Assembly: GCA_021739625.1 (NCBI GenBank)
Contig: JAIPBJ010000023.1
Location: 1 to 36,882, forward strand
DNA length: 36,882 nucleotides
Direction of reading: 5' to 3'
From: Flavobacteriales bacterium
GTDB taxonomy: Bacteria; Bacteroidota; Bacteroidia; UBA10329
Below the pieces are notes generated by a model. That model was given only the letters and a program-made list of their open reading frames with translations. It did not search any database and was not told where the DNA came from. Shown here in pieces: positions 1,693-18,721 of this stretch. How positions within the stretch are numbered: position 1 is the stretch's first letter; each line of letters begins with the position of its first letter. The position numbers were made by a program, and so were the translations under genes.

Positions 1693-3102
1693 ATGAGGGC
1701 GGTCTATACCTACTGGACAGACGGCAAGGACATCAGCACCTTGAACGCTGGGTTCAACAACCTGCGCGACATGGCCGCGATGGTGTCGCTCAGCATCCGC
1801 ACGTTAAGGCGGAACAACCCATGGATAAGTTCGGTGCAGCTTGTGACCAACAGCGTGGGCAGGCGGGTGTTCGCTGACAGGTATCCCATGCCGTTCGATG
1901 AGGTGGCCGTCATCCTTGACCATCTGGACGGACGTGTGCATCCCGACCATTGGGGCTACGCCAAGATATGCGCTTATGCGCATCAGGACGGGCCTTTCAT
2001 CCATATTGACAATGACGTGGTGCTGTGGCGACCACTGAGCAGTGCGTTCACATCAGCACCATTGTTCTTTCAGAATCGGGAGAACATCTCTTCGCATCAG
2101 GGCTATGCGGGCATGCTGAATGCAGCGACAGGATTTCTGCTAGCCAACATCTCCCAGAATGTGGAGTGGGCCTACAACTGTGGAATAGTCGGGGCCAACG
2201 ACCTCGACATCGTCAAGCATTGGAAGGTGGCCGTGGACGAGTTCCTGTTCGATGAGGGTAACGCCCGCTACTGGCAGCAGACCATTGACAGGCACAGCAC
2301 CAACCACCTCTTTGAACAGTACTTCATCAGTTCGCTGGCCCGTTCGATAGGCGTTGTGCCCAAGGAACTGCTCACCGATTTCCGTTACGGGATGGATCAG
2401 AAGGAGATCACCCACCTGTGGGGAGGGTCTAAGCGGCTCGGTCACAATATGGACCGCGTACATGCCAAACTGGCAAGCATGTTTCCTGACGACCATGCCG
2501 CCATCATGGCCGTGCGGCCAGACCATGCCGATGTTTTCGCATCTGTCTATCGCACGAAGAAATGGGGGAATGGAAGTGGCGGGGGCAGCACTGTTGAGGT
2601 CACGGAAGCATACAGGGAGTTCCTGTCAGCCTTTGTCAAGCAGAATGACATAGGCAGCGTGGTCGACCTCGGCTGCGGCTATTGGGGATTCAACGGGCTT
2701 GTGAGATGGAATGGCGCAAAGTATCACGGCATCGATGTGGTGGATGCGGTGGTGGCCGACAATCGGGAAGGACACCGGTCCAATGACCGCACTTGGGAGG
2801 TGGCAGACATCCGCACTTGCCCGATACCGCCCTGCGACCTACTCATCATCAAGGACGTGCTCATTCACTGGACCAACAAGGAGGTTCAAGACTTCTTTCA
2901 GCGTGACCTGCCAGCCAGATACATCCTCATCACCAATGACGACCGTGTGCAGGAAGTGAATACGGACATTCACGTGCCTGGTGAATTCAGGGATGTGGAC
3001 ATCACAAAAGCACCCTTTCACATCAATGCCGATGTGGTGTTCAAATGGTCTAATGTGAGCAAGAGCACTTGGTTGATATCGAATCCGTATATAGGCTCGT
3101 AA
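1693..3102 (+). CDS. DUF6734-type glycosyltransferase-like domain fused to a class I SAM methyltransferase
   Basis: The protein has 469 residues in two modules. Residues 1-280 look like the Bacteroidota family DUF6734: an N-terminal MRAVYTYWTDG, a substrate-loop-like HPDHWGYAKI, then HIDNDVVLWRPL with a D106-N107-D108 triad like the metal/nucleotide-sugar DxD site of GT-A glycosyltransferases, and later HLWGGSKR. Residues 300-465 are a SAM-dependent methyltransferase. VVDLGCGYWG (D325, G327, G329) is motif I, YHGIDVVD carries the acidic residue of motif II, and LLIIKDVLIHW is the motif IV region. No signal peptide is seen, so the enzyme is probably cytoplasmic. I infer sequential sugar or glycan transfer and methylation, but the substrate is unknown. 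The start is the first ATG in frame, giving the family's usual N-terminus. The fusion is supported by one uninterrupted frame. Confidence 0.7.
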   Translation: MRAVYTYWTDGKDISTLNAGFNNLRDMAAMVSLSIRTLRRNNPWISSVQLVTNSVGRRVFADRYPMPFDEVAVILDHLDGRVHPDHWGYAKICAYAHQDGPFIHIDNDVVLWRPLSSAFTSAPLFFQNRENISSHQGYAGMLNAATGFLLANISQNVEWAYNCGIVGANDLDIVKHWKVAVDEFLFDEGNARYWQQTIDRHSTNHLFEQYFISSLARSIGVVPKELLTDFRYGMDQKEITHLWGGSKRLGHNMDRVHAKLASMFPDDHAAIMAVRPDHADVFASVYRTKKWGNGSGGGSTVEVTEAYREFLSAFVKQNDIGSVVDLGCGYWGFNGLVRWNGAKYHGIDVVDAVVADNREGHRSNDRTWEVADIRTCPIPPCDLLIIKDVLIHWTNKEVQDFFQRDLPARYILITNDDRVQEVNTDIHVPGEFRDVDITKAPFHINADVVFKWSNVSKSTWLISNPYIGS

Positions 3103-3619: not shown

Positions 3620-3709
3620 GGCCATATCTCGCAAAGGCCCATCGGGGTCGTGCCCCTTCTTGGGCTGTCCACCGTCCTTTAGGTTCCTTGCTCCACCCCC
3701 TCCACACAA

Positions 3710-3741
3710 ATTGCCTTCTAAAAGGCATCCTATTACCTTTA
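3710..3741 (+). promoter_or_regulatory. Bacteroidota-type promoter of the large surface protein
   Basis: ATTG at 3710-3713, a 20-nt spacer and TACCTTTA at 3734-3741 match the -33 TTTG / -7 TAnnTTTG promoter with one mismatch in each box. The ATG at 3751 follows only 9 nt after the -7 box. A second ATG at 3760 would give a short leader. This argues against the in-frame ATG at 3688, which lies upstream of the promoter. Confidence 0.6.
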
Positions 3742-3750
3742 TCCCGTTCT

Positions 3751-6700
3751 ATGTTTCACATGAGACTTTTCTCTGCCCATCACGGTTCCATTAAGGCTTG
3801 CCTGTGCTCCTTTCAGGGTATTCTTCTCGTCCTGATGCTGTCCGTTGGCGATGTATGGGCGCAGGTGGACACCGAGTTCTGGTTCGCTGCCCCGGAGGTG
3901 TCTCAGGACGGCTCCAACTTCGACCGGCCCATCACGCTGCGTATCACCACCTTGGGTCAGGCCAGCACCGTGACCGTCACCCAGCCCGCCAACGGTGGTT
4001 TTGTGCCGATCGCAATCAATGTGGCGGCCAATGCCAGTGCCAACATCGACCTCACCCCTTTCATCAACACCATTGAGAACAAGCCCGCCAACGCGGTGCT
4101 GAACTTCGGGCTTCACATCACTGCCACGGCCCCGGTAAGCATCTACTACGAGGTGGTGAGTCAGCAATGCCTCTGCAATCCCGAGATATTCGCGCTGAAG
4201 GGAATGAATGCGGTCGGCAACGGATTCATAGTTCCATTCCAGACCTTTCTCAATAATGGCGGGGGTTATGCGCCCACTCCATATTCCTCCTTCGACATTG
4301 TGGCCACCGAGAACACGACCACGGTGACCATCACGCCCACACAGGCCATCGTGGGCCACCCGGCCGGAGTGCCTTTCACCTTCAACCTCGATCAGGGACA
4401 GACATGGTCGGGCACTGCAAGTTCGCAGGCGGCAGCACAGCACCCGAGCGGCACCGTGGTCACGTCCGACAGGCCCATCGCCATCACCATCAAGGACGAC
4501 CTGCTCTCTGGCGCACCCTACGGAGGCTGTGCCGACCTGATGGGCGATCAGATCGTTCCCATCGACAAGGTCGGAGAGGAATACATAGTGATGAAAGGAG
4601 GTCTGAACGGCCCCGACCGCGTCTTCATTGTCGGCACCCAGAACGGGACCACAGTGGCAGTGGCAGGCGCAGGTGCCGGAACCATCAACGCGGGCCAGAC
4701 CCTGACCGTTGACATCACTGCGGCTTCGACCTACATCGTGGCATCGGCACCGGTCTATGTGCTGCATCTTTCGGGTTTCGGCTGCGAAGTGGGCGGAGCG
4801 CTGCTGCCGCCCATCATCTGCACCGGCTCCGCACAGCTCGGATTCACGCGCAGCACCAACGAGAATTTTGCCGTTAACCTGATGACCCGAACGGGCAACG
4901 AGGGAGGATTCACCATCAACGGGAATGCCGGGCTCGTTCCTGCCGGGGCGTTCCAACCTGTTCCTAACACCAATGGCGACTGGATGGCGGCCCAGATCTA
5001 TTTCACCGTAGGCCAGATTGCGGCCGGAAGCGGCAACATCATCGCCAATTCGCTCGGAAAGTTCCACATGGGCATCATCCATGGTTCGGGAGGTGGCGGC
5101 ACGCGCTATGGCTATTTTTCAGACTTCAATGCCCTCGATCCGCCCATTGTGGCCTCTTCGGTCAACGCCTGCACAGGTGGCGAGATCCTGCTTTCGGCCA
5201 GTTCCGATCCCGGTGCCACTTTCGATTGGACGGGGCCGAACGGATTCACCAGCACGGTGCAGAATCCCGTGATCATGAATGCTGCTTTCATCCATCAGGG
5301 CATTTATACGGTGATCGCAGAATTGGACGGATGCGTCAGCGACTCTGCCCACGTGCCTGTGACCGTGGAGGACTGCGGATGTGTTGAGACCGTCTCTAAC
5401 GGTGGGTTTGAACAACCTGTTGCCAGCGCGTGCTGGGACGTGTTCAATCAGGCGCAGGTGCCCGAATGGCGCACATTGAGCGCGATGAACATCATGGAGA
5501 TATGGAACGGGGCCTGCATGGGTGTTCCTGCTTATGAAGGTGCCCAAATGGCTGAAATGGATGCGGGCATCGCTCCCTATTTCATGGATGTCTGCACCGA
5601 TTGCGCTGAGATCGTCAATTGGGGACTTGCCCACCGTGGCCGAATGGGCGTGGATGTGATGGGGCTGGAGGCCGGCCCACCGGGAGGCCCCTACGTTCCG
5701 CTGGGCGCCTTTACCGATAGCAACAATGCATGGGGCTATTACACGGGTGTTTACAACGTTCCTGCTGGCCAAGCGATGACACGTTTCCTGCTCACTTCCA
5801 TCTCTGCATCGGGCGGAAATTCTTCCATCGGGAATCTGGTGGATGCCGTGACCTTCGTGCAGGCCGTCATTCCAATAAATGTGTCTGCGCTCATCTGCGA
5901 TGGCGGCAGCTACCTGCTGCCTGGAGGCACCACGGTCGCTGTACCAGGGGTTTATACCGACACATTGGTATCCTCAGCAGGTTGCGACAGCGTCATAGTC
6001 ACCACACTGGCCTTCCATCCACAGCCCGTGGCAAATGCCGGACAAGATGCGGCCGTCTGTGCCGGTGAATCCGTCCAATTGAATGGTTCGGGCGGTGTTG
6101 CCTACGCATGGACGCCTGTTCCCACACTTTCCGACCCTGCTACGGCAAACCCGACAGCCACGCCTGCCTCAACCACTGCCTACACGCTCACAGTGACCGA
6201 TGCAAATGGCTGCGAGGACAACGGAACGGTCACTGTCACCGTCAATCCGCTCCCGAGTGTGAATGCCGGAACGGACGCATCCGTCTGCATCGGCACAACC
6301 GCACAGCTTGGCGCAAGTGGGGCCGATAGTTACGATTGGTCACCGGCCGCTGGCCTTGACGATGCGGCCATTTCCGATCCCACATTCAGCGGCCTTGCCA
6401 CGCAGACCTTCACCGTCACTGGCACAGATGCCAACGGATGCCAGAACACCGATGATGTGACGGTGACGGTGGTGGACCTGCCTTCTGTGAATGCGGGCAA
6501 CGACACTGCCATCTGCATCGGTAGCACCCTCCAGCTCAATGCAACAGGCGGAGTGAGTTATGTGTGGGATCCGGCCACAGACCTGAACAATGTGAACATT
6601 GCCAATCCCATATTCTCCGGAATCCAAACAACAGCCTTCACAGTAACGGGGACAGACGCGGCAGGGTGCGTGAACACGGACGATATCACCATCACGGTGA

Positions 6701-8718
6701 ATTCCCTCCCGATCATCAACGCTGGGAATGATGCTGAGATATGCGCGGGACAGACTGCACAGCTCAATGCTTCGGGTGCTCAAAGCTATGTGTGGTCGCC
6801 CGCTTCGGGTCTGAATGATGCCGCCATCGCTACACCCACTTTCAGTGGAACAAATTCCACCATATTCACCGTGTCAGGAACAGATGCGAACGGCTGCCAG
6901 AACACGGACGATGTCATCATCACCGTGAATCCGCTTCCTATAGCAGACATCGATCCACCGGCAGACGTGTGTCTGGGCAACGCCACCCAGTTCACGCACA
7001 GTTCTACTGGCAGCATCACCGGTTTCAACTGGGTGCTGGCCGCTGGTGTGACGCCCACTATCGAGAACCCATCGCACACTTATGCTTCGGACGGCACATT
7101 CAACGTCTCACTCACCGTCACCGACATCAACGGCTGCGTGGACAGCGACAATGCCTCGGCCACTGTGCTGCCTCTTCCGCAGCCCGACATGAACATTCAG
7201 AACGCAGCGAATTTCTGCGAGAATGAGACCATTCAGTTCAATGCGCTCAATGTGGCCGGGGCAGCAGCATTCGCTTGGAACTTCAACTATCAGCCAGGAC
7301 TGCCACCGCAGCCAGATTTCAGCAGTTCGCAGCAGAATCCATCCTTCACCTACAACCAGTTCGGGAGTTACAACGTGCGATTGCTGGTGCTTTCTCAGGG
7401 CGGGTGTGTGGGCGATGTGGTAAGGAGCGTCAATGTGCATGACGTTCCTGTGGCCGACTTCTCGTTCAACGTGGCCTGCGAGGGAGAGAGCACGCTGCTC
7501 AACAGCCTCAGCACAGTGCAGGGCAATACTGTGGTGAATGGTTGGCAATGGAACATGGCCGATGGCAGCCCGATCCAGTATGGTGAAATGTATGTTCACC
7601 AATATGCCACGGCCGGAACATATACCGTTCAGCACATTATTCAGACCAACCAAGGATGCCGCGACACCATTGTGCAAGATGTCTGGATGAATCCTACGCC
7701 TGTCATGGATTTTTCAGGAAACAATGTCTGTCTGGAGGACGAGACGGTCTTCGGGAACAATTCGACCCCGCAGGATGCCACCATCATAGCGTGGGAATGG
7801 GATTTCGGGGACGCGCAGACCATGCAGACCCTGGATGCGTCACACACGTATGCTGCTTTCGGCACCTACAGCGTCACCCTCACTGCCGAGTCGGACAGCG
7901 GCTGCTCCGCGACAGGAATTATTCAGGTCGATGTATATCCCAATCCCGTCCCGGTCATCACGGTGCTGGTGCCGGAGGGCTGCGAACCGCTCACCGTGCC
8001 TATGCTCAGCAACAGCAGCATTCCTCAGGGCAGCATCGTAACGCATGACTGGGATTTTGGGGATGGGAATCTCGGCAATGGTGCCTCGCTCACGCATGTC
8101 TATCAGGACACACTGGGCACCTTCGACCTCACGCTCACTGTCACCAGCAATCAGGGTTGCGTCTCGACCATGACCGCAACGGGTGCTGTGACCGTGAACG
8201 TGACCCCTGTGGCCGATTTCGGCCAGAATGCCATCACCCTGTCGATGCTCGATCCGCTGCTGGTGCTCACCGACCTTTCACAGGACGCGCTGCTTCATGG
8301 ATGGACTTTCGGGGACGGCAGCACCTCTGCCCTGCCCTCACCGCAACACCGCTACTCCGATCCGGGCGAATATGACATCACCCTCACCGTTCGCAACGGG
8401 GACTGCATGGACACACGGCAGTCAAAGATCATCGTGGAACCGCTGTTCACATTCTATATCCCCAATGCATTCACACCTGATGCCAACAACCGGAACGAAC
8501 GGTTCTTCGCACAGGGCGAAGGCTATGAATTCTACGAAATGGTCATTTACGACCGCTGGGGCGAGGTAATCTATCAAGGCGTGGATGCTGCCGATGGTTG
8601 GGACGGTTCCTGCAAAGGGAAACAGGTGCCTCTTGGGGCATACATTTACAACATCACCGTGAAAGATCTTACAGGTGAGGTGCATGAGTTCACAGGCAAG
8701 GTGATGCTGGTGAGATAA
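3751..8718 (+). CDS. Giant T9SS-secreted surface protein: IgGFc-like head, Ig/PKD repeats, CHU_C sorting domain
   Basis: The protein has 1,655 residues and is probably exported by Sec and then by the type IX secretion system. A signal peptide (hydrophobic GILLVLMLSVGDVWAQ) ends near residue 36. Residues 40-390 start DTEFWFAAPEVS and resemble the IgGFc-binding N-terminal domain found in Bacteroidota adhesins. An Ig-like module (about 457-540) and a jelly-roll-like segment opening SNGGFEQP (about 545-705) follow, then an ICDGGSYLLPGG...GCDS repeat. Four Ig-like repeats of about 76 residues each open with NAG.D..C.G...QLNASG (760-1060). About six PKD-type repeats (WDFGDG...HTY) reach residue 1565. 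The last 90 residues (YIPNAFTPD...YDRWGEVIY) are the gliding-motility-associated C-terminal domain. Likely an adhesin or cell-surface fibre. The SprE-like gene at 30480 supplies matching secretion machinery. It converges on the next gene with an 11-bp gap. Confidence 0.88.
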   Translation: MFHMRLFSAHHGSIKACLCSFQGILLVLMLSVGDVWAQVDTEFWFAAPEVSQDGSNFDRPITLRITTLGQASTVTVTQPANGGFVPIAINVAANASANIDLTPFINTIENKPANAVLNFGLHITATAPVSIYYEVVSQQCLCNPEIFALKGMNAVGNGFIVPFQTFLNNGGGYAPTPYSSFDIVATENTTTVTITPTQAIVGHPAGVPFTFNLDQGQTWSGTASSQAAAQHPSGTVVTSDRPIAITIKDDLLSGAPYGGCADLMGDQIVPIDKVGEEYIVMKGGLNGPDRVFIVGTQNGTTVAVAGAGAGTINAGQTLTVDITAASTYIVASAPVYVLHLSGFGCEVGGALLPPIICTGSAQLGFTRSTNENFAVNLMTRTGNEGGFTINGNAGLVPAGAFQPVPNTNGDWMAAQIYFTVGQIAAGSGNIIANSLGKFHMGIIHGSGGGGTRYGYFSDFNALDPPIVASSVNACTGGEILLSASSDPGATFDWTGPNGFTSTVQNPVIMNAAFIHQGIYTVIAELDGCVSDSAHVPVTVEDCGCVETVSNGGFEQPVASACWDVFNQAQVPEWRTLSAMNIMEIWNGACMGVPAYEGAQMAEMDAGIAPYFMDVCTDCAEIVNWGLAHRGRMGVDVMGLEAGPPGGPYVPLGAFTDSNNAWGYYTGVYNVPAGQAMTRFLLTSISASGGNSSIGNLVDAVTFVQAVIPINVSALICDGGSYLLPGGTTVAVPGVYTDTLVSSAGCDSVIVTTLAFHPQPVANAGQDAAVCAGESVQLNGSGGVAYAWTPVPTLSDPATANPTATPASTTAYTLTVTDANGCEDNGTVTVTVNPLPSVNAGTDASVCIGTTAQLGASGADSYDWSPAAGLDDAAISDPTFSGLATQTFTVTGTDANGCQNTDDVTVTVVDLPSVNAGNDTAICIGSTLQLNATGGVSYVWDPATDLNNVNIANPIFSGIQTTAFTVTGTDAAGCVNTDDITITVNSLPIINAGNDAEICAGQTAQLNASGAQSYVWSPASGLNDAAIATPTFSGTNSTIFTVSGTDANGCQNTDDVIITVNPLPIADIDPPADVCLGNATQFTHSSTGSITGFNWVLAAGVTPTIENPSHTYASDGTFNVSLTVTDINGCVDSDNASATVLPLPQPDMNIQNAANFCENETIQFNALNVAGAAAFAWNFNYQPGLPPQPDFSSSQQNPSFTYNQFGSYNVRLLVLSQGGCVGDVVRSVNVHDVPVADFSFNVACEGESTLLNSLSTVQGNTVVNGWQWNMADGSPIQYGEMYVHQYATAGTYTVQHIIQTNQGCRDTIVQDVWMNPTPVMDFSGNNVCLEDETVFGNNSTPQDATIIAWEWDFGDAQTMQTLDASHTYAAFGTYSVTLTAESDSGCSATGIIQVDVYPNPVPVITVLVPEGCEPLTVPMLSNSSIPQGSIVTHDWDFGDGNLGNGASLTHVYQDTLGTFDLTLTVTSNQGCVSTMTATGAVTVNVTPVADFGQNAITLSMLDPLLVLTDLSQDALLHGWTFGDGSTSALPSPQHRYSDPGEYDITLTVRNGDCMDTRQSKIIVEPLFTFYIPNAFTPDANNRNERFFAQGEGYEFYEMVIYDRWGEVIYQGVDAADGWDGSCKGKQVPLGAYIYNITVKDLTGEVHEFTGKVMLVR

Positions 8719-12839: not shown

Positions 12840-13088
12840 ATGGTCTCACTCAAAAAGAACATCGCCATCAGCGACTCTGGGTTTGTGTTCAACCCATCCA
12901 ACGGTGACTCATTCTCGCTCAATCAGATCGGTCTCGATATGCTGCTGCAATTGAAGGAAGCGCAGTCGGAAGAACAGGTGAAGGCCGCCATCATGGCCAA
13001 GTATGACATTGACCGCGACTCGCTGGACAACGACTACTATGATTTTCTCAAGATGTTGGGTCAATTCAAACTGCTGGAGCTGTCATGA
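12840..13088 (+). CDS. PqqD-like protein (RiPP recognition element fold)
   Basis: The protein has 82 residues. The pattern (MVSLKKNIAISDSGFVFNP, then SLNQIGLDMLLQLKEAQSEEQVKAAI, then DYYDFLKMLGQFKLL) matches PqqD-like chaperones: an N-terminal beta-hairpin, the 'LNxxGxxhLxLL' turn into helix 1, and a final helical pair. In known RiPP pathways this fold binds the leader of a precursor peptide and presents it to modifying enzymes. Its stop overlaps the start of the ATP-grasp gene by 4 bp (ATGA), so the two are translationally coupled and very probably act together. It may serve as a leader-binding element or as a carrier. A weak promoter-like TTACTTCG lies at 12806-12813. Confidence 0.75.
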   Translation: MVSLKKNIAISDSGFVFNPSNGDSFSLNQIGLDMLLQLKEAQSEEQVKAAIMAKYDIDRDSLDNDYYDFLKMLGQFKLLELS

Positions 13089-14131
13089 AACGCACCATAA
13101 CCATAGCCGTAACGGGCCTCAACGCAATCGATAGTCCGGGGCCGGGAGTGCCGGTGATCCGTGCGCTGCGCGAGAGCAAGGAATTTGATGTGCACATCAT
13201 CGGCCTGAGCTACGAAACGCTGGAGCCGGGCATCTACATGCACGATCTGGTGGACAAGACCTACCAGATCCCCTTCCCTAAATCGGGGCAGGAGGTGCTT
13301 TTCCAACGGTTGGCGCATATCCATGCGGTGGAGAAGATCGATCTGGTGTTCCCGAATTTCGATGCCGAACTGTTCAACTTCATCAAGCTGGCCCCACGCT
13401 TGGAAAAGGAGCTGGGTGTGAAGACCTTCCTGCCCACTGTGGAGCAGTTTGAGGCGCGCCACAAGGTGAACCTCAACGAATATGGCAAGAAGCACGGTAT
13501 CGATGTGCCGCACAGCAAGATGATCTTCAGCACGGCCGAGATACCATCATTGGCCTCAGAATTCACATATCCCGTGGTGGTCAAGGGCCAGTTCTATGAT
13601 GCGAGCATCGCATATAATGCCGAGCAGGTGGCCACGTATTTCCACAAGATCAGCGCGAAATGGGGCTTGCCGGTCATCATCCAGCAGTTCATCTATGGCA
13701 CGGAGGTCAACCTCATTGCCTTAGGCGATGGCAAGGGCGGCACGGTAGGGATGGTGCCCATGCGCAAGACCTACATCACCGATAAGGGCAAGGCATGGGC
13801 AGGCGTGGCGTTGGACGATGATGACCTTTTGAACGCTGGCCGCGAACTTATCGCTGCCACCAAATGGCGCGGTGGACTGGAGCTGGAATACATCAAGAGT
13901 AGTGACGACAAGTATTACCTCTTGGAGATAAATCCCCGATTCCCGGCCTGGGTCTATCTGGCGGTGGGCTGCGGACAGAACCTGCCCGAACAGTGGGTGA
14001 AACTGGCCATGGGCGATGAACCGACCTATTTCGACACCTACAGTGTGGGCAAGATGTTCATCCGCTACTCATGGGACATGATCGTGGATCTGAAGGAGTT
14101 TGAGACCATATCTACGCTTGGGGAGCTATGA
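13085..14131 (+). CDS. ATP-grasp ligase, carbamoyl-phosphate-synthase-like
   Basis: The protein has 348 residues. It opens with a Rossmann-like pre-ATP-grasp domain (TIAVTGLNAIDSPGPGVPVI) followed by an ATP-grasp fold. K167 (YPVVVKGQF) is an expected ATP-binding lysine, IIQQFIYGTEVNL is the adenine-side segment, and E281/N283 (LLEINPRFPAW) are the magnesium ligands. ATP-grasp enzymes activate a carboxylate as an acyl-phosphate and couple it to an amine or thiol. Here the acceptor is unknown. Overlap with the PqqD-like gene and the PLP decarboxylase 111 bp downstream suggest a pathway in which an amino acid or peptide carboxylate is activated and decarboxylated. It is cytoplasmic. It is not CarB itself, being far too short and lacking the second ATP-grasp half. 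Confidence 0.83.
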   Translation: MKRTITIAVTGLNAIDSPGPGVPVIRALRESKEFDVHIIGLSYETLEPGIYMHDLVDKTYQIPFPKSGQEVLFQRLAHIHAVEKIDLVFPNFDAELFNFIKLAPRLEKELGVKTFLPTVEQFEARHKVNLNEYGKKHGIDVPHSKMIFSTAEIPSLASEFTYPVVVKGQFYDASIAYNAEQVATYFHKISAKWGLPVIIQQFIYGTEVNLIALGDGKGGTVGMVPMRKTYITDKGKAWAGVALDDDDLLNAGRELIAATKWRGGLELEYIKSSDDKYYLLEINPRFPAWVYLAVGCGQNLPEQWVKLAMGDEPTYFDTYSVGKMFIRYSWDMIVDLKEFETISTLGEL

Positions 14132-14143
14132 GAAGAGTGTTGA

Positions 14144-14240
14144 GAAAATGGAAAACGGAAAATCGTTTGGGAGGACGCACCTTCTGAAATCATTACTCAC
14201 CAATTGTTAATTGCCAATAATTAATTGTTAATTGAAATAA
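14144..14240 (+). repeat. Heptanucleotide repeats upstream of the PLP decarboxylase
   Basis: Two runs occur: GAAAATG GAAAACG GAAAATC at 14144-14164, and CCAATTG TTAATTG CCAATAA TTAATTG TTAATTG at 14200-14234. Both have an exact 7-bp period. The second run ends 8 nt before the ATG at 14243, so it forms the translation-initiation region of the decarboxylase. It also interrupts the otherwise tight operon. Confidence 0.7.
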
Positions 14241-14242
14241 AG

Positions 14243-15601
14243 ATGGAAAAGCAACGCTACGAACGCCCCGTCATCAGGAGACTGAACGTGGGAGTGATGA
14301 ACAAATTCGGCACGCGCACCGAGTATGAGCCTGTGACCCACATTGATGACAATGCAGTGGCATCGCTCATCAAAGAGCACGGTTCGCCCCTGTTCGTCAT
14401 CTCAGAGAAGACGATACGCACCACCTTCCAAGATGCGCTGCGGGCCTTCAACACACGCTATCCGAAGGTGCAGTTCGCCTGGAGCTACAAGACCAACTAC
14501 ATCGCTGGCGTGTGCAACGTGTTCCATCAGATGGGCTCTTGGGCCGAGGTGGTGTCGGGTTTCGAGTATCTGAAGGCGCTGAAATCGAACGTGCCGGGCA
14601 ACAAGATCATCTTCAACGGACCGGACAAGACCGTGGAGGAACTGACCTTGGCCATCGACAACGACTCTCTCATCCACATCGACCACTTGGACGAGCTCTA
14701 CACGCTCACCGAGCTGGCCATTGCCAAAGCCAAGAAGCCTCGCGTGGCCATCCGTGTCAACATGGACACGGGCATCTATCCCATGTGGGACCGCTTCGGA
14801 TTCAACTACGAGAACGGACAGGCGTGGGATGCCATCAACAAGATCGTGCTGGCCGACAGGCTGCAACTGGTGGGCCTTCATGCGCACATCGGCACCTTCA
14901 TGCTGTCGCCAAGCGCCTATGGTGTGGCGGCAGGCAAGCTGAGCGAACTGGCCATCCGAGTACGTGACAAGTTCGGGCGCAAGATCGAATACCTCGACCT
15001 CGGTGGCGGTTTTGCATCGAAGAACACGCTCAAAGGCTCGTTCCTCTCGGGTCCCGACACATCGCCCACCTTCGATGATTTTGCGGAGACCATCGTAACA
15101 GCAATTGTCAATGCAGGTTTCTTGGAGGATGAGCTTCCGCTGCTGATCCTCGAAACAGGCCGCGCCTTAGTGGACGAGGCAGGTTATCTGCTCGGGTCGG
15201 TAATCAGCAACAAACGCCTCAGCGATGGCCGCAGGGCCACCATCATGGACTTCGGGGTCAACATCCTGTTCACCGCCTTCTGGTACGACCACAAGATCAG
15301 CCCCGCGCAGGACTTCAGTCACCACACCGAGGACACAGTGATGTACGGCCCATTGTGCATGAACATCGATGTGGTGCGCGAGAACGCCACACTGCCGCCC
15401 ATGAAGCGTGGCGAACACGTGGTGGTGCACAGCGTGGGTGCCTACAACATGACCCAATGGATGCAGTTCATCGCGCTGCGCCCGGCCGTGGTGATGATCG
15501 ACATGAAGGGCAAACCCCATCTGGTGCGCAAGCGCGAGACCCTCGCCAACATCGATGAGCAGGAAGTGTTGCCTGAGTACCTTCGGGCGTTTAAGCTGTA
15601 G
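14243..15601 (+). CDS. Fold-type-III PLP decarboxylase (LysA/ODC-like) with a RiPP-leader-like N-terminus
   Basis: The protein has 452 residues. From about residue 30 it is an alanine-racemase-fold PLP decarboxylase. K83 (WSYKTN) is the PLP Schiff-base lysine, H213-H215 (GLHAHIGT) stacks on PLP, G254-F257 (DLGGGF) holds phosphate, ETGRALVDEAG is the second phosphate segment, and C372 (GPLCMNID) is the catalytic cysteine at the dimer interface. Diaminopimelate decarboxylase normally reads CES.D there and ornithine decarboxylase CDG.D. The MNID replacement implies another substrate. Residues 1-24 precede the catalytic domain and read RYERPVIRRLNVG, a YxxPxI...G pattern like leader peptides bound by PqqD-type elements. 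I chose the ATG at 14243; the TTG at 14225 lies inside repeat sequence. It follows the PqqD-like and ATP-grasp genes on the same strand. Confidence 0.82.
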   Translation: MEKQRYERPVIRRLNVGVMNKFGTRTEYEPVTHIDDNAVASLIKEHGSPLFVISEKTIRTTFQDALRAFNTRYPKVQFAWSYKTNYIAGVCNVFHQMGSWAEVVSGFEYLKALKSNVPGNKIIFNGPDKTVEELTLAIDNDSLIHIDHLDELYTLTELAIAKAKKPRVAIRVNMDTGIYPMWDRFGFNYENGQAWDAINKIVLADRLQLVGLHAHIGTFMLSPSAYGVAAGKLSELAIRVRDKFGRKIEYLDLGGGFASKNTLKGSFLSGPDTSPTFDDFAETIVTAIVNAGFLEDELPLLILETGRALVDEAGYLLGSVISNKRLSDGRRATIMDFGVNILFTAFWYDHKISPAQDFSHHTEDTVMYGPLCMNIDVVRENATLPPMKRGEHVVVHSVGAYNMTQWMQFIALRPAVVMIDMKGKPHLVRKRETLANIDEQEVLPEYLRAFKL

Positions 15602-16528: not shown

Positions 16529-18721
16529 ATGACCCCTGCCGCACGCAAATATCTCTGGAACCTGTTCCGCGATGCGCTGCTGCACGGCTATTCGCAGATC
16601 TTCTTCAGTCTGGACAGGACGTTCGGCATAGTGCTGCTCATCGTGTCGTTTACCGACCCGTATGTGGCGCTGAGCGGACTGAGCGCAGGTCTGCTGGCCA
16701 ACTTCGCGGCCTATGCCCTGGGCTACGACCACAAGGGCATTCGCGAAGGGATGTACAGCTTCAACAGCATCATGATGGGCATGATGATGGGCGTTTATTA
16801 TGACGTGAACATCCAGTTCGTGCTACTGTTGGCCTTGTTGTCCATGCTGGTGCTCTTCCTCAGCATCGGGTTGCAGAGCCGCTTTGGTACAAAAGGATTG
16901 CCTGTGATGAGCATCCCGTTCCTCTTCGGGGTGTGGACGCTGCTGCTGGTGGGCCGTCAGTTCACCGGCCTCGACCTCTCGGAGCGCGGCATCTACACCG
17001 TGAACGAACTGTGGAGCTATGGCGGGCAGTTTCTCGTGAATCTCCACGCCACGGTAGAGGGGCTTCCTGTGCCTGAGCTGATGGCCGTCTATCTGCGGTC
17101 GTTGGGGGCCATCTTCTTCCAGAACACACTTTTTGCGGGCTTCATCATCCTGTTGGGGCTGGTGGTGTTCTCGCGCATTGCCTTTGTGCTGAGCGTCATC
17201 GGGTTTTTCAGCGGCTACTTTTTCTTCGGGTTCATGAGCGGCAGTTTCATGCAGCTTAACTACACCTTCATCGGGTTCAACTTTATCCTGTCGAGCATTG
17301 CGCTGGGCGGGTTCTTCATCATCCCTTCGTTCGGGTCGCATGTGCTGGTGGTGCTCACTGCGCCTGTCATCGCCATTCTCATCTCGGCCCTTTCGCAAGT
17401 GATGGGCACGTTCGGGCTGCCCATCTATTCCCTGCCCTACAACATTATTGTGCTGCTCACGCTCTACACTTTGCGCACGAGGGCAGTGCCGAAGGGTTGG
17501 CTCACACTCATCACCGAGCAGACCTATTCGCCCGAAAAGAACCTCTATCGCTTTCAGAACCGCATGGCCCGTTATGCCCGCGACACATGGTTCCATATCT
17601 ATCTCCCGTTCTATGGCGAATGGACCATAAGCCAAGGCCACGATGGTGACCAGACCCACAAGGGCGAATGGCAGCACGCGCTCGATTTCTCCATCATGGA
17701 TAGCGGTGGGTCGAGTTACAAGGCGCCCGGTTCGAAGTTGGAGGACTATTACTGCTATAACCGTCCGATCGTTGCTCCACAGGATGGCTGGGTGGTGGCG
17801 CTCCAAGATGGTGTGGCCGATAACCGCCCTGGTGAGATGGATCTGGACAAGAACTGGGGCAATGCCATCGTCATTAAGCATGGCGAGGGCATTTTCAGCA
17901 AGGTGAGCCACATCCGCGAAGGCACCTACAAAGTGGCCTTAGGCGACTATGTGAAGAAGGGACAGGTGTTGGCCAACATCGGCAACAGTGGCCGCTCGCC
18001 CGAGCCGCACATCCATTTCCAGTTGCAGGCCACGCCTTTCATCGGTAGCCGTACCATGGCCTATCCGCTGGCCTATTATGCCGTGAAGGAGAATGGGAAG
18101 CCATCGTTCCGCTCGTTTGCAACGCCCAAGGAAGGTGAAGTGGTGAGCAACATCGCCATCAACCCCGTGCTGAAGAAGGCCTTCTGGCTGCAACCCGGCA
18201 TGTGTTTCCAAGTGTTCGGAGAGAAGACACAGGAGCAATGGGAGGTGTACACCGATGCCTACAACCACAGCTACATCTGGTGCGCGAAGACGGAGAGCAC
18301 GGCCTATTTCGTGAACAACGGAACGCTGTTCTACTTCACGGATTTCATTGGCGACAGAAATTCCATCCTTTTCAGGTTCCATTTGGCTGCGCAACGCATT
18401 CTGCTCAGTTCGGAGGATGGACTGAAGGTGAACGACCGCCTCTCGGTGGATACCGTTTTCAGTGGGCCGAAGAAGGCCGCGTTGGATGCCGTGGCACCAT
18501 TCGCGCAAGTGGTGAGGGCAGACTTCGCGGAGTTCTGCGACAGTGCCGACCGGGACATCACCCCCAAGTGGGCCATTCTGCGTTCCAACATAAAGGTGCA
18601 GGCCTTCGGGCAGGTGCAGCGCAACATGGATTTCCGCATCGACATCGGCCCTGAGGGCGTCTCAGGCTTCGACATGGAAGTGGGCAAAACGAAATACCGG
18701 TACACATGCGCGCTACAATAG
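16529..18721 (+). CDS. Urea-transporter-like membrane protein fused to an M23-family peptidase domain
   Basis: The protein has 730 residues. Residues 10-335 hold about ten membrane helices with the two internal repeats of the urea transporter family: HGYSQIFFSLDRTFGIVLL near residue 20 and LGAIFFQNTLFAGFIILLG near 195, plus FNSIMMGMMMG. Residues 370-520 are a lysostaphin/LytM-type (M23) domain: WQHALDF (H383, D386), VVALQDG, VSHIREGTYKVALGDYVKKGQ and PHIHFQ (H494, H496). The H383-D386 spacing is HxxD rather than the usual HxxxD, so activity is uncertain. The last 200 residues are an extra beta-rich part. I infer an inner-membrane channel with a periplasmic peptidase or peptidoglycan-binding arm. 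It overlaps the TPR-barrel gene by 16 bp, so the three genes form an operon. Confidence 0.83.
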   Translation: MTPAARKYLWNLFRDALLHGYSQIFFSLDRTFGIVLLIVSFTDPYVALSGLSAGLLANFAAYALGYDHKGIREGMYSFNSIMMGMMMGVYYDVNIQFVLLLALLSMLVLFLSIGLQSRFGTKGLPVMSIPFLFGVWTLLLVGRQFTGLDLSERGIYTVNELWSYGGQFLVNLHATVEGLPVPELMAVYLRSLGAIFFQNTLFAGFIILLGLVVFSRIAFVLSVIGFFSGYFFFGFMSGSFMQLNYTFIGFNFILSSIALGGFFIIPSFGSHVLVVLTAPVIAILISALSQVMGTFGLPIYSLPYNIIVLLTLYTLRTRAVPKGWLTLITEQTYSPEKNLYRFQNRMARYARDTWFHIYLPFYGEWTISQGHDGDQTHKGEWQHALDFSIMDSGGSSYKAPGSKLEDYYCYNRPIVAPQDGWVVALQDGVADNRPGEMDLDKNWGNAIVIKHGEGIFSKVSHIREGTYKVALGDYVKKGQVLANIGNSGRSPEPHIHFQLQATPFIGSRTMAYPLAYYAVKENGKPSFRSFATPKEGEVVSNIAINPVLKKAFWLQPGMCFQVFGEKTQEQWEVYTDAYNHSYIWCAKTESTAYFVNNGTLFYFTDFIGDRNSILFRFHLAAQRILLSSEDGLKVNDRLSVDTVFSGPKKAALDAVAPFAQVVRADFAEFCDSADRDITPKWAILRSNIKVQAFGQVQRNMDFRIDIGPEGVSGFDMEVGKTKYRYTCALQ

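Follow-up and report, generated by a model that had tools for sequence, protein, structure and literature searches.

The locus at positions 12,840 to 15,601 of a 36,882-nucleotide stretch of Flavobacteriales DNA (GenBank assembly GCA_021739625.1, contig JAIPBJ010000023.1; hereafter the window) raises the question of what a PqqD-like protein binds when no separate precursor peptide is encoded beside it. Three genes lie there on the same strand, encoding an 82-residue PqqD-like protein, an ATP-grasp ligase and a fold-type-III pyridoxal phosphate (PLP) decarboxylase. An earlier note on this DNA proposed that they might activate, attach and decarboxylate an amino acid on a peptide or protein held by the PqqD-like protein. 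All three open reading frames (ORFs) were confirmed where the note had placed them, the ORFs and their Pfam matches agreeing, with the 3' end of the PqqD-like gene (13088) overlapping the ATP-grasp start (13085) by 4 bp. It is suggested here that the PqqD-like protein is a recognition element of the type found in the biosynthesis of ribosomally synthesised and post-translationally modified peptides (RiPPs), and that its ligand is probably not a separate peptide but the N-terminal tail of the neighbouring decarboxylase.

The assignment of the PqqD-like protein as a RiPP recognition element (RRE) draws on its fold, its sequence and its pocket. The AlphaFold2 model of the monomer (predicted local distance difference test score, pLDDT, 89) has the winged helix-turn-helix fold of a stand-alone RRE of fewer than 100 residues, the nearest solved structures being those of TbiB1 with bound leader (template modelling score 0.84-0.86), and a search with its sequence profile matches TbiB1 (E 2.6e-12) and TfuB1 (E 3.1e-6). 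In LppB, N33, D70 and F74 contact the leader, D70 doing so at the Tyr hydroxyl; the N33A substitution nearly abolishes complex formation and D70A weakens it (PMC13381572). Profile alignment with TbiB1 places N28, D65 and F69 of the PqqD-like protein on these three residues, and they are conserved in 109/109, 104/109 and 104/109 unique sequences respectively; in a larger set the Asn is kept in 153 of 156 and the Phe in 138 of 156. By these measures the protein is a genuine RRE, for which leader binding is predicted.

Discrete lasso-peptide RREs read a [Y/W]xxPx[L/V/I/F/A] motif in the leader (PMC13381572), and the decarboxylase tail matches this motif, near the protein N-terminus as in a precursor. 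Residues 1-24 are conserved as M-x-K-x-x-[YF]-E-[RKS]-P-x-[IVL]-x5-G-x-[MPT]-N-K-[FY]-G (numbering begins at the ATG at 14243, there being no need for the longer TTG start at 14225), with P9, K21 and [YF]6 present in 156/156 unique sequences and G23 in 155, and in one further locus (L165) the motif is present with KHG replacing K[FY]G. The tail lies outside the alignments with FslC and LysA, which begin near residue 34, and its comparison with NCBIfam and PDB sequences returned nothing meaningful. A comparable motif occurs in the first 45 residues of 81/81 decarboxylases versus 1 of 1211 other genes of these loci, and the strict motif was absent from the other proteins of the operon.

The tail and the pocket vary together. 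Exceptions to D65 in the PqqD-like protein are systems whose decarboxylase tail has Phe, with no hydroxyl to bind, in place of Tyr. When extra genomes around these exceptions were added, 156 unique pairs were obtained, one of them unscorable: tail Tyr is found with pocket Asp in 131 and Asn in 2, and tail Phe with Tyr in 20, His in 1 and Phe in 1, such that 155/155 conform without exception. On a tree of the remaining columns there are two changes in each trait, both of them joint, and the covariation therefore has the statistical weight of two events, not of 22. The pair ranks 7 of 65,518 in a blind mutual-information scan, and the covariation carries weight because the pair had been predicted beforehand from crystal structures. 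Given the motif, the pocket and their covariation, a contact between the RRE and the tail is predicted with good, if not full, confidence.

The gene set is far from a chance assembly and is a recurrent Bacteroidota biosynthetic unit. The earlier note had called for a search for co-occurrence, and comparison of the best 80 genome contigs on which a decarboxylase relative is encoded (81 loci in the counts below) identified a set larger than three genes. The order and strand of PqqD, ATP-grasp, decarboxylase, a urea-channel family (UT) domain fused to an M23 metallopeptidase domain (UT::M23), an outer-membrane protein which we take to be YaiO-like and a tetratricopeptide repeat (TPR) protein are kept, and in the window the conserved unit reaches downstream beyond the three genes, to 20575. 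Intergene distances within the unit are mostly overlaps or a few bases (medians -17, 35, 12, -13 and -4), and the UT::M23 gene adjoins the decarboxylase gene in most loci. An independent sample, which avoids the bias of starting from the decarboxylase, was obtained by taking the ATP-grasp alignment as the query against 395 genomes of the phylum. A strong match (>370 bits) was found in 34, and in the 30 fragments fetched from the best genomes of this search the decarboxylase adjoins the ligase in all 30 and PqqD is found in 28 by BLAST and 29 by profile, with a longer stretch of the 30th genome (G255) revealing PqqD approximately 1.9 kb upstream of the ligase gene. More distant ATP-grasp matches with neither PqqD nor decarboxylase (L119, L130 and L131) were excluded. 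Retention of the set is near-complete at 41-43% ATP-grasp identity, where it is intact in nearly every locus, and the neighbourhood is kept even where identity falls to about 47% for the decarboxylase and 41% for the ligase. Recurrence in 80 contigs and in 34 of 395 genomes, with order and strand alike in both samples, removes the possibility, raised in the earlier note, that the trio occurs in this genome alone. Four of nine genomes in the window's genus carry the system, which is an accessory trait of patchy distribution, with the caveat that some of the genus assemblies are incomplete. A PADLOC scan for a defence system gave no match.

Two further results separate co-retention from mere inheritance as an operon. 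First, in genus g339 (genomes G734 and G788) the ATP-grasp gene stands alone amid unrelated genes and the decarboxylase, with an intact tail, is on another contig. Given the intact tail, a PqqD was expected somewhere in the genome, and it was found in both, on a third contig (E 6e-31) and with the pocket Asp present, UT::M23 being on a fourth. Second, full-length UT::M23 was found in 5/5 system-bearing genomes and in 0/25 without the ATP-grasp ligase, the latter giving shorter M23 proteins only. Retention of the four genes on separate contigs and this distribution of UT::M23 therefore indicate a functional link and not an artefact of operon inheritance. ATP-grasp genes without neighbours (L193, L194) were considered as counter-examples and rejected, as their partners are elsewhere in those genomes.

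The decarboxylase belongs, as judged by its sequence, with the specialised 'clade 2' decarboxylases, which are described as unrelated to polyamine metabolism and include BtrK, MccE, FslC/FigC, SbnH and AcsE (PMC7857480). The marks of fold type III are kept in its relatives (PLP lysine K83 in 132/132, G255 of the GGG phosphate loop in 132/132 and the catalytic C372 in 130/132), and its closest solved relative is the N-citrylornithine decarboxylase FigC/FslC (7kh2, E 8e-52). In the specificity helix (T344/W347/Y348), T344 stands in place of the diaminopimelate-binding R343 of diaminopimelate decarboxylase and corresponds to T327 of FigC, and Y348 aligns with FigC Y331. The loop C372-M-N-I-D has the sequence given in the earlier note and does differ from the CES.D of diaminopimelate decarboxylase, but it is not without precedent, given that it aligns with C354-M-Q-H-D of FigC. 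Two known activities were considered. N-citrylornithine decarboxylase is made improbable by an FslC NCBIfam score of 211 against a cut-off of 500 and by replacement of the citrate contacts of FigC (H357, R387 and N389; PMC7857480) with I375, Q405 and M407; T344, Y348, the C-M loop, I375 and Q405 are essentially invariant in 132 relatives, M407 being the exception. From these pocket residues, the side group handled by the enzyme is probably not citrate. An ordinary LysA in a genome with no other lysA, the alternative set out in the earlier note, is ruled out by the lysA equivalog score (208 bits, below the cut-off of 297.9), the change from R343 to T344, the CMNID loop and a true lysA on another contig of the same genome (C50; 362 bits, above the curated cut-off). 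The genome also encodes a third, more distant fold-III decarboxylase homolog (G000:C139:48803-49981; 83 bits, in a 660-residue frame).

The five conserved residues of the ligase (Table 1) are invariant in the alignment of its relatives and correspond to the Lys and acidic/Asn Mg-ATP residues. Its AlphaFold2 monomer model (pLDDT 90) matches ATP-grasp enzymes in Foldseek at E 2e-20, is closest to 2pn1, and has among its other ATP-grasp matches the L-amino-acid ligases RizA (4wd3) and 3vot (BL00235 type), and PylC. These matches group it with the amide-forming ATP-grasp enzymes, and it would most naturally be expected to form an amide bond with an amino acid. Downstream, the UT domain is of the urea transporter family by sequence (Pfam UT covers residues 15-314, both internal repeats; solved urea transporters are matched at E 1e-32), and urea transport is predicted at most. 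In the M23 domain (17640-18030) the first zinc motif is TH-x8-D instead of HxxxD, and the HxH motif is intact and conserved. The earlier note saw no exporter nearby; this is corrected by the UT::M23, outer-membrane and TPR proteins, a candidate transport system adjoining the three genes. These proteins suggest a small polar product that either passes through the envelope or acts there.

The best explanation of the locus as a whole, to which a probability of roughly 0.55 is given, is that the RRE docks the ligase on the decarboxylase tail, an amino acid amide is decarboxylated and the product goes to the envelope. The RRE would grip the YERPVI tail of the pathway's own decarboxylase, and this binding would recruit to that enzyme the ATP-grasp ligase, whose translation is coupled to that of the RRE. 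The ligase would join an amino acid to a carboxylic acid through an amide bond, its product being either a free amide passed to the decarboxylase or the amino acid attached at K21 of the tail; the decarboxylase would strip the alpha-carboxylate from this acylated or tethered amino acid, so that an amine remains; and the UT::M23, outer-membrane and TPR proteins would transport the product or position it at the envelope. The gene set, its co-retention, the decarboxylase subfamily, the leader motif of the tail and the conserved leader pocket are well supported, and the identity of the amide, the tethering at Lys21 and the transport step are only proposed.

Several observations weigh against this explanation. 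The exchange of Tyr/Phe in the tail with Asp/aromatic in the pocket amounts to one clade and one reversal, and other position pairs score close to the tail-pocket pair through lineage effects. The spacing between the tail and the domain is nearly fixed (41 residues in 124/128 loci), so that the tail could belong to the ordered structure of the decarboxylase. The Gly of the tail falls two residues further from the motif than in lasso leaders, if the lasso spacing is as we presume it to be. Lastly, that the ligase and the decarboxylase share one substrate is only proposed.

Of the alternatives, the one that survives best is a refinement in which the tail serves as substrate: Lys21 (in NKFG) would be presented by the RRE to the ligase, which would join an amino acid to it by an isopeptide bond, and the decarboxylase would act on this amino acid on its own tail, much as BtrJ/BtrI/BtrK work with an acyl carrier protein. 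K21, kept in 132/132 and 156/156 sequences, varies no more than the PLP lysine does and lies 15 residues past the motif Tyr, near the position at which the LppA core starts (Tyr at -16; PMC13381572); BtrK is in the same decarboxylase clade (PMC7857480), and a pocket without the citrate-binding residues may accept a neutral, amide-linked group. The position and invariance of K21 make the tethered version attractive; nevertheless, no releasing enzyme was identified, unless it is the M23 domain or an unlinked enzyme, and the invariance of K21 may be structural, such that this refinement is put forward only tentatively. A related arrangement, in which leader, carrier and catalyst are in one polypeptide, with loading of K21, decarboxylation in cis and exit of the amine via the urea-channel::M23 protein, is likewise doubtful.

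Given that discrete RREs normally bind precursors, it is possible that a precursor peptide encoded elsewhere is the true ligand and that the decarboxylase tail mimics a leader in order to join the complex. Comparison of small intergenic ORFs across the 81 loci, however, identified no conserved precursor candidate, in agreement with the earlier note, which saw no separate precursor gene nearby; the only recurring small-ORF families come from four near-identical loci, several of them on the opposite strand. Neither these loci nor a search of the genome with the tail model yielded the short precursor with leader and core that defines a RiPP cluster: the tail model found no second strong copy, and its next match, at E 0.9, is at chance level. 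This match is a 47-residue ORF, MKKKTYARPAIRKVAIDKEISMVMMSFGPNGDPEGSLKLLNPLRWLR (L157:1396-1539, on the minus strand of contig C152 of genome G000; MKKKTYARPAIRKVAIDKEISMVMMSFGPNGDPEGS...), which resembles the tail motif and looks like a small precursor-type Bacteroidota peptide, though the resemblance may be chance. Since every decarboxylase of the system has the tail, and tail and pocket change together, a precursor elsewhere is considered improbable.

That the PqqD-like protein is instead a carrier loaded with an amino acid, in the manner of LysW or BtrI, is very improbable. It is small, as is BtrI (87 residues), and BtrJ and BtrK are presumably also a pair of ATP-grasp enzyme and fold-III decarboxylase, but its C-terminus is variable in length and sequence, it has no phosphopantetheine (DSL) motif and no invariant Lys or Cys, and it has both the fold and the conserved residues of an RRE that binds leaders; a search of the conserved unit for a carrier gene with a phosphopantetheine serine found none. 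The proposal of the earlier note is thus divided: a logic of activation, attachment and decarboxylation like that of BtrI/BtrJ/BtrK may still apply, with a ligase of the amide-forming type, but the PqqD-like protein is probably not the carrier or the holder of a separate peptide, as the leader-type motif sits on the decarboxylase tail, where it varies together with the pocket. That the enzyme is a common diaminopimelate or polyamine decarboxylase whose neighbours are there by chance is hardly credible, given that its annotation-level similarity to lysA is countered by the true lysA elsewhere, the Arg-to-Thr and loop Glu-to-Met changes and the retention of the neighbourhood at low identity.

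Comparison with known systems indicates that the parts all come from known superfamilies and that their arrangement is apparently undescribed. The discrete lasso RREs (TbiB1, TfuB1/FusB1 and PbaB1) and LppB share the RRE fold, sequence relatedness, the conserved N/D/F leader-contact residues and a YxxPxI motif near a protein N-terminus, but here the motif is on a 452-residue decarboxylase in a locus without cyclase, protease or precursor. FigC/FslC (also SbnH, AcsE, MccE and BtrK) share the C-M-x-x-D loop and the Thr and Tyr of the specificity helix, but the citrate contacts are replaced and a leader-like tail is present here, and the partner of FigC/FslC is presumably an NRPS-independent siderophore (NIS) synthetase in contrast to an ATP-grasp ligase. 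Butirosin BtrI/BtrJ/BtrK, with BtrJ assumed to be the ATP-grasp activator, combines such activation with a fold-III PLP enzyme that decarboxylates an amino acid in its tethered state, but on an acyl carrier protein, where an RRE and a decarboxylase tail are found here. Graspetide loci likewise join an ATP-grasp enzyme to a theme of peptide recognition; the ligase here is instead of the PRK12767/L-amino-acid-ligase type, and no precursor with an Asp/Glu-rich core was found. Daptides share RRE-guided decarboxylation but use an unrelated enzyme, the reaction being oxidative, NAD(P)-dependent and directed at the precursor's C-terminal Thr (PMC10036551). Within the open-access full-text literature (subscription papers and preprints being outside this scope) no description was found of this gene set, or of an RRE for which a biosynthetic enzyme carries the leader motif, and the suggestion of an undescribed pathway made in the earlier note stands, with the addition that the pathway recurs in Bacteroidota.

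Table 1. Features of the locus and its neighbourhood (window positions)
Feature	Position	Strand	Remarks
AraC-type regulator, 198 aa	12082..12678	+	Pfam HTH_18 1.3e-15; short N-terminal domain
PqqD-like RRE (discrete RiPP recognition element), 82 aa	12840..13088	+	Pfam PqqD E 1.8e-9
ATP-grasp ligase, 348 aa	13085..14131	+	conserved K127, K167, E268, E281, N283; Foldseek matches to ATP-grasp enzymes
Leader-like N-terminal tail of decarboxylase, MEKQRYERPVIRRLNVGVMNKFGT	14243..14314	+	YERPVI at 14258-14275; K21 at 14303-14305
Fold-type-III PLP decarboxylase, 452 aa	14243..15601	+	Orn_Arg_deC_N E 9e-28
ORF, 244 aa	15658..16392		no family match; between decarboxylase and UT::M23 gene
UT domain fused to M23/LytM metallopeptidase domain, 730 aa	16529..18721	+	Pfam UT 2.4e-55; Peptidase_M23 5.4e-15
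Outer-membrane/TPR protein, presumably YaiO-like, 418 aa	18706..19962	+	homolog at same place in 69/81 loci
TPR protein, 202 aa	19967..20575	+	end gene of conserved unit; homolog in 69/81 loci

The 244-residue ORF has no counterpart in the loci of relatives and is an insertion. A homolog of the AraC regulator lies just 5' of PqqD in 33/81 loci, and in 9 loci a hybrid histidine kinase directly 5' of PqqD replaces it (for example L016:6442-8673). The N-terminal domain of the regulator has an NM-x4-C motif and is HMA-like by eye; some of its relatives have CxxC-like pairs (NMxCxC) and others lack one Cys. In two separate genomes a multicopper oxidase gene is inside the unit (L075:7201-8913 and L011:6270-7922), the positions being between PqqD and ATP-grasp and between decarboxylase and UT::M23. 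The oxidase and the HMA-like N-terminus give a weak hint of a connection to copper. Elsewhere in the window are a 1676-residue protein (3688-8718) that combines repeated PKD domains with an IgGFc-binding-like domain and a CHU_C type IX secretion signal, and one ORF (1693-3102) in which a weak methyltransferase match comes after a DUF6734 domain.

RREs serve as class-independent beacons in RiPP discovery, and their ligand is assumed to be a precursor peptide. Here it is suggested that the RRE instead recognises a motif carried by a biosynthetic enzyme, in which case leader logic would serve the docking of enzymes or a carrier in cis. The unit is widespread, conserved and probably annotated as a diaminopimelate decarboxylase and a urea transporter, and its metabolite should be accessible through the expression of few genes.

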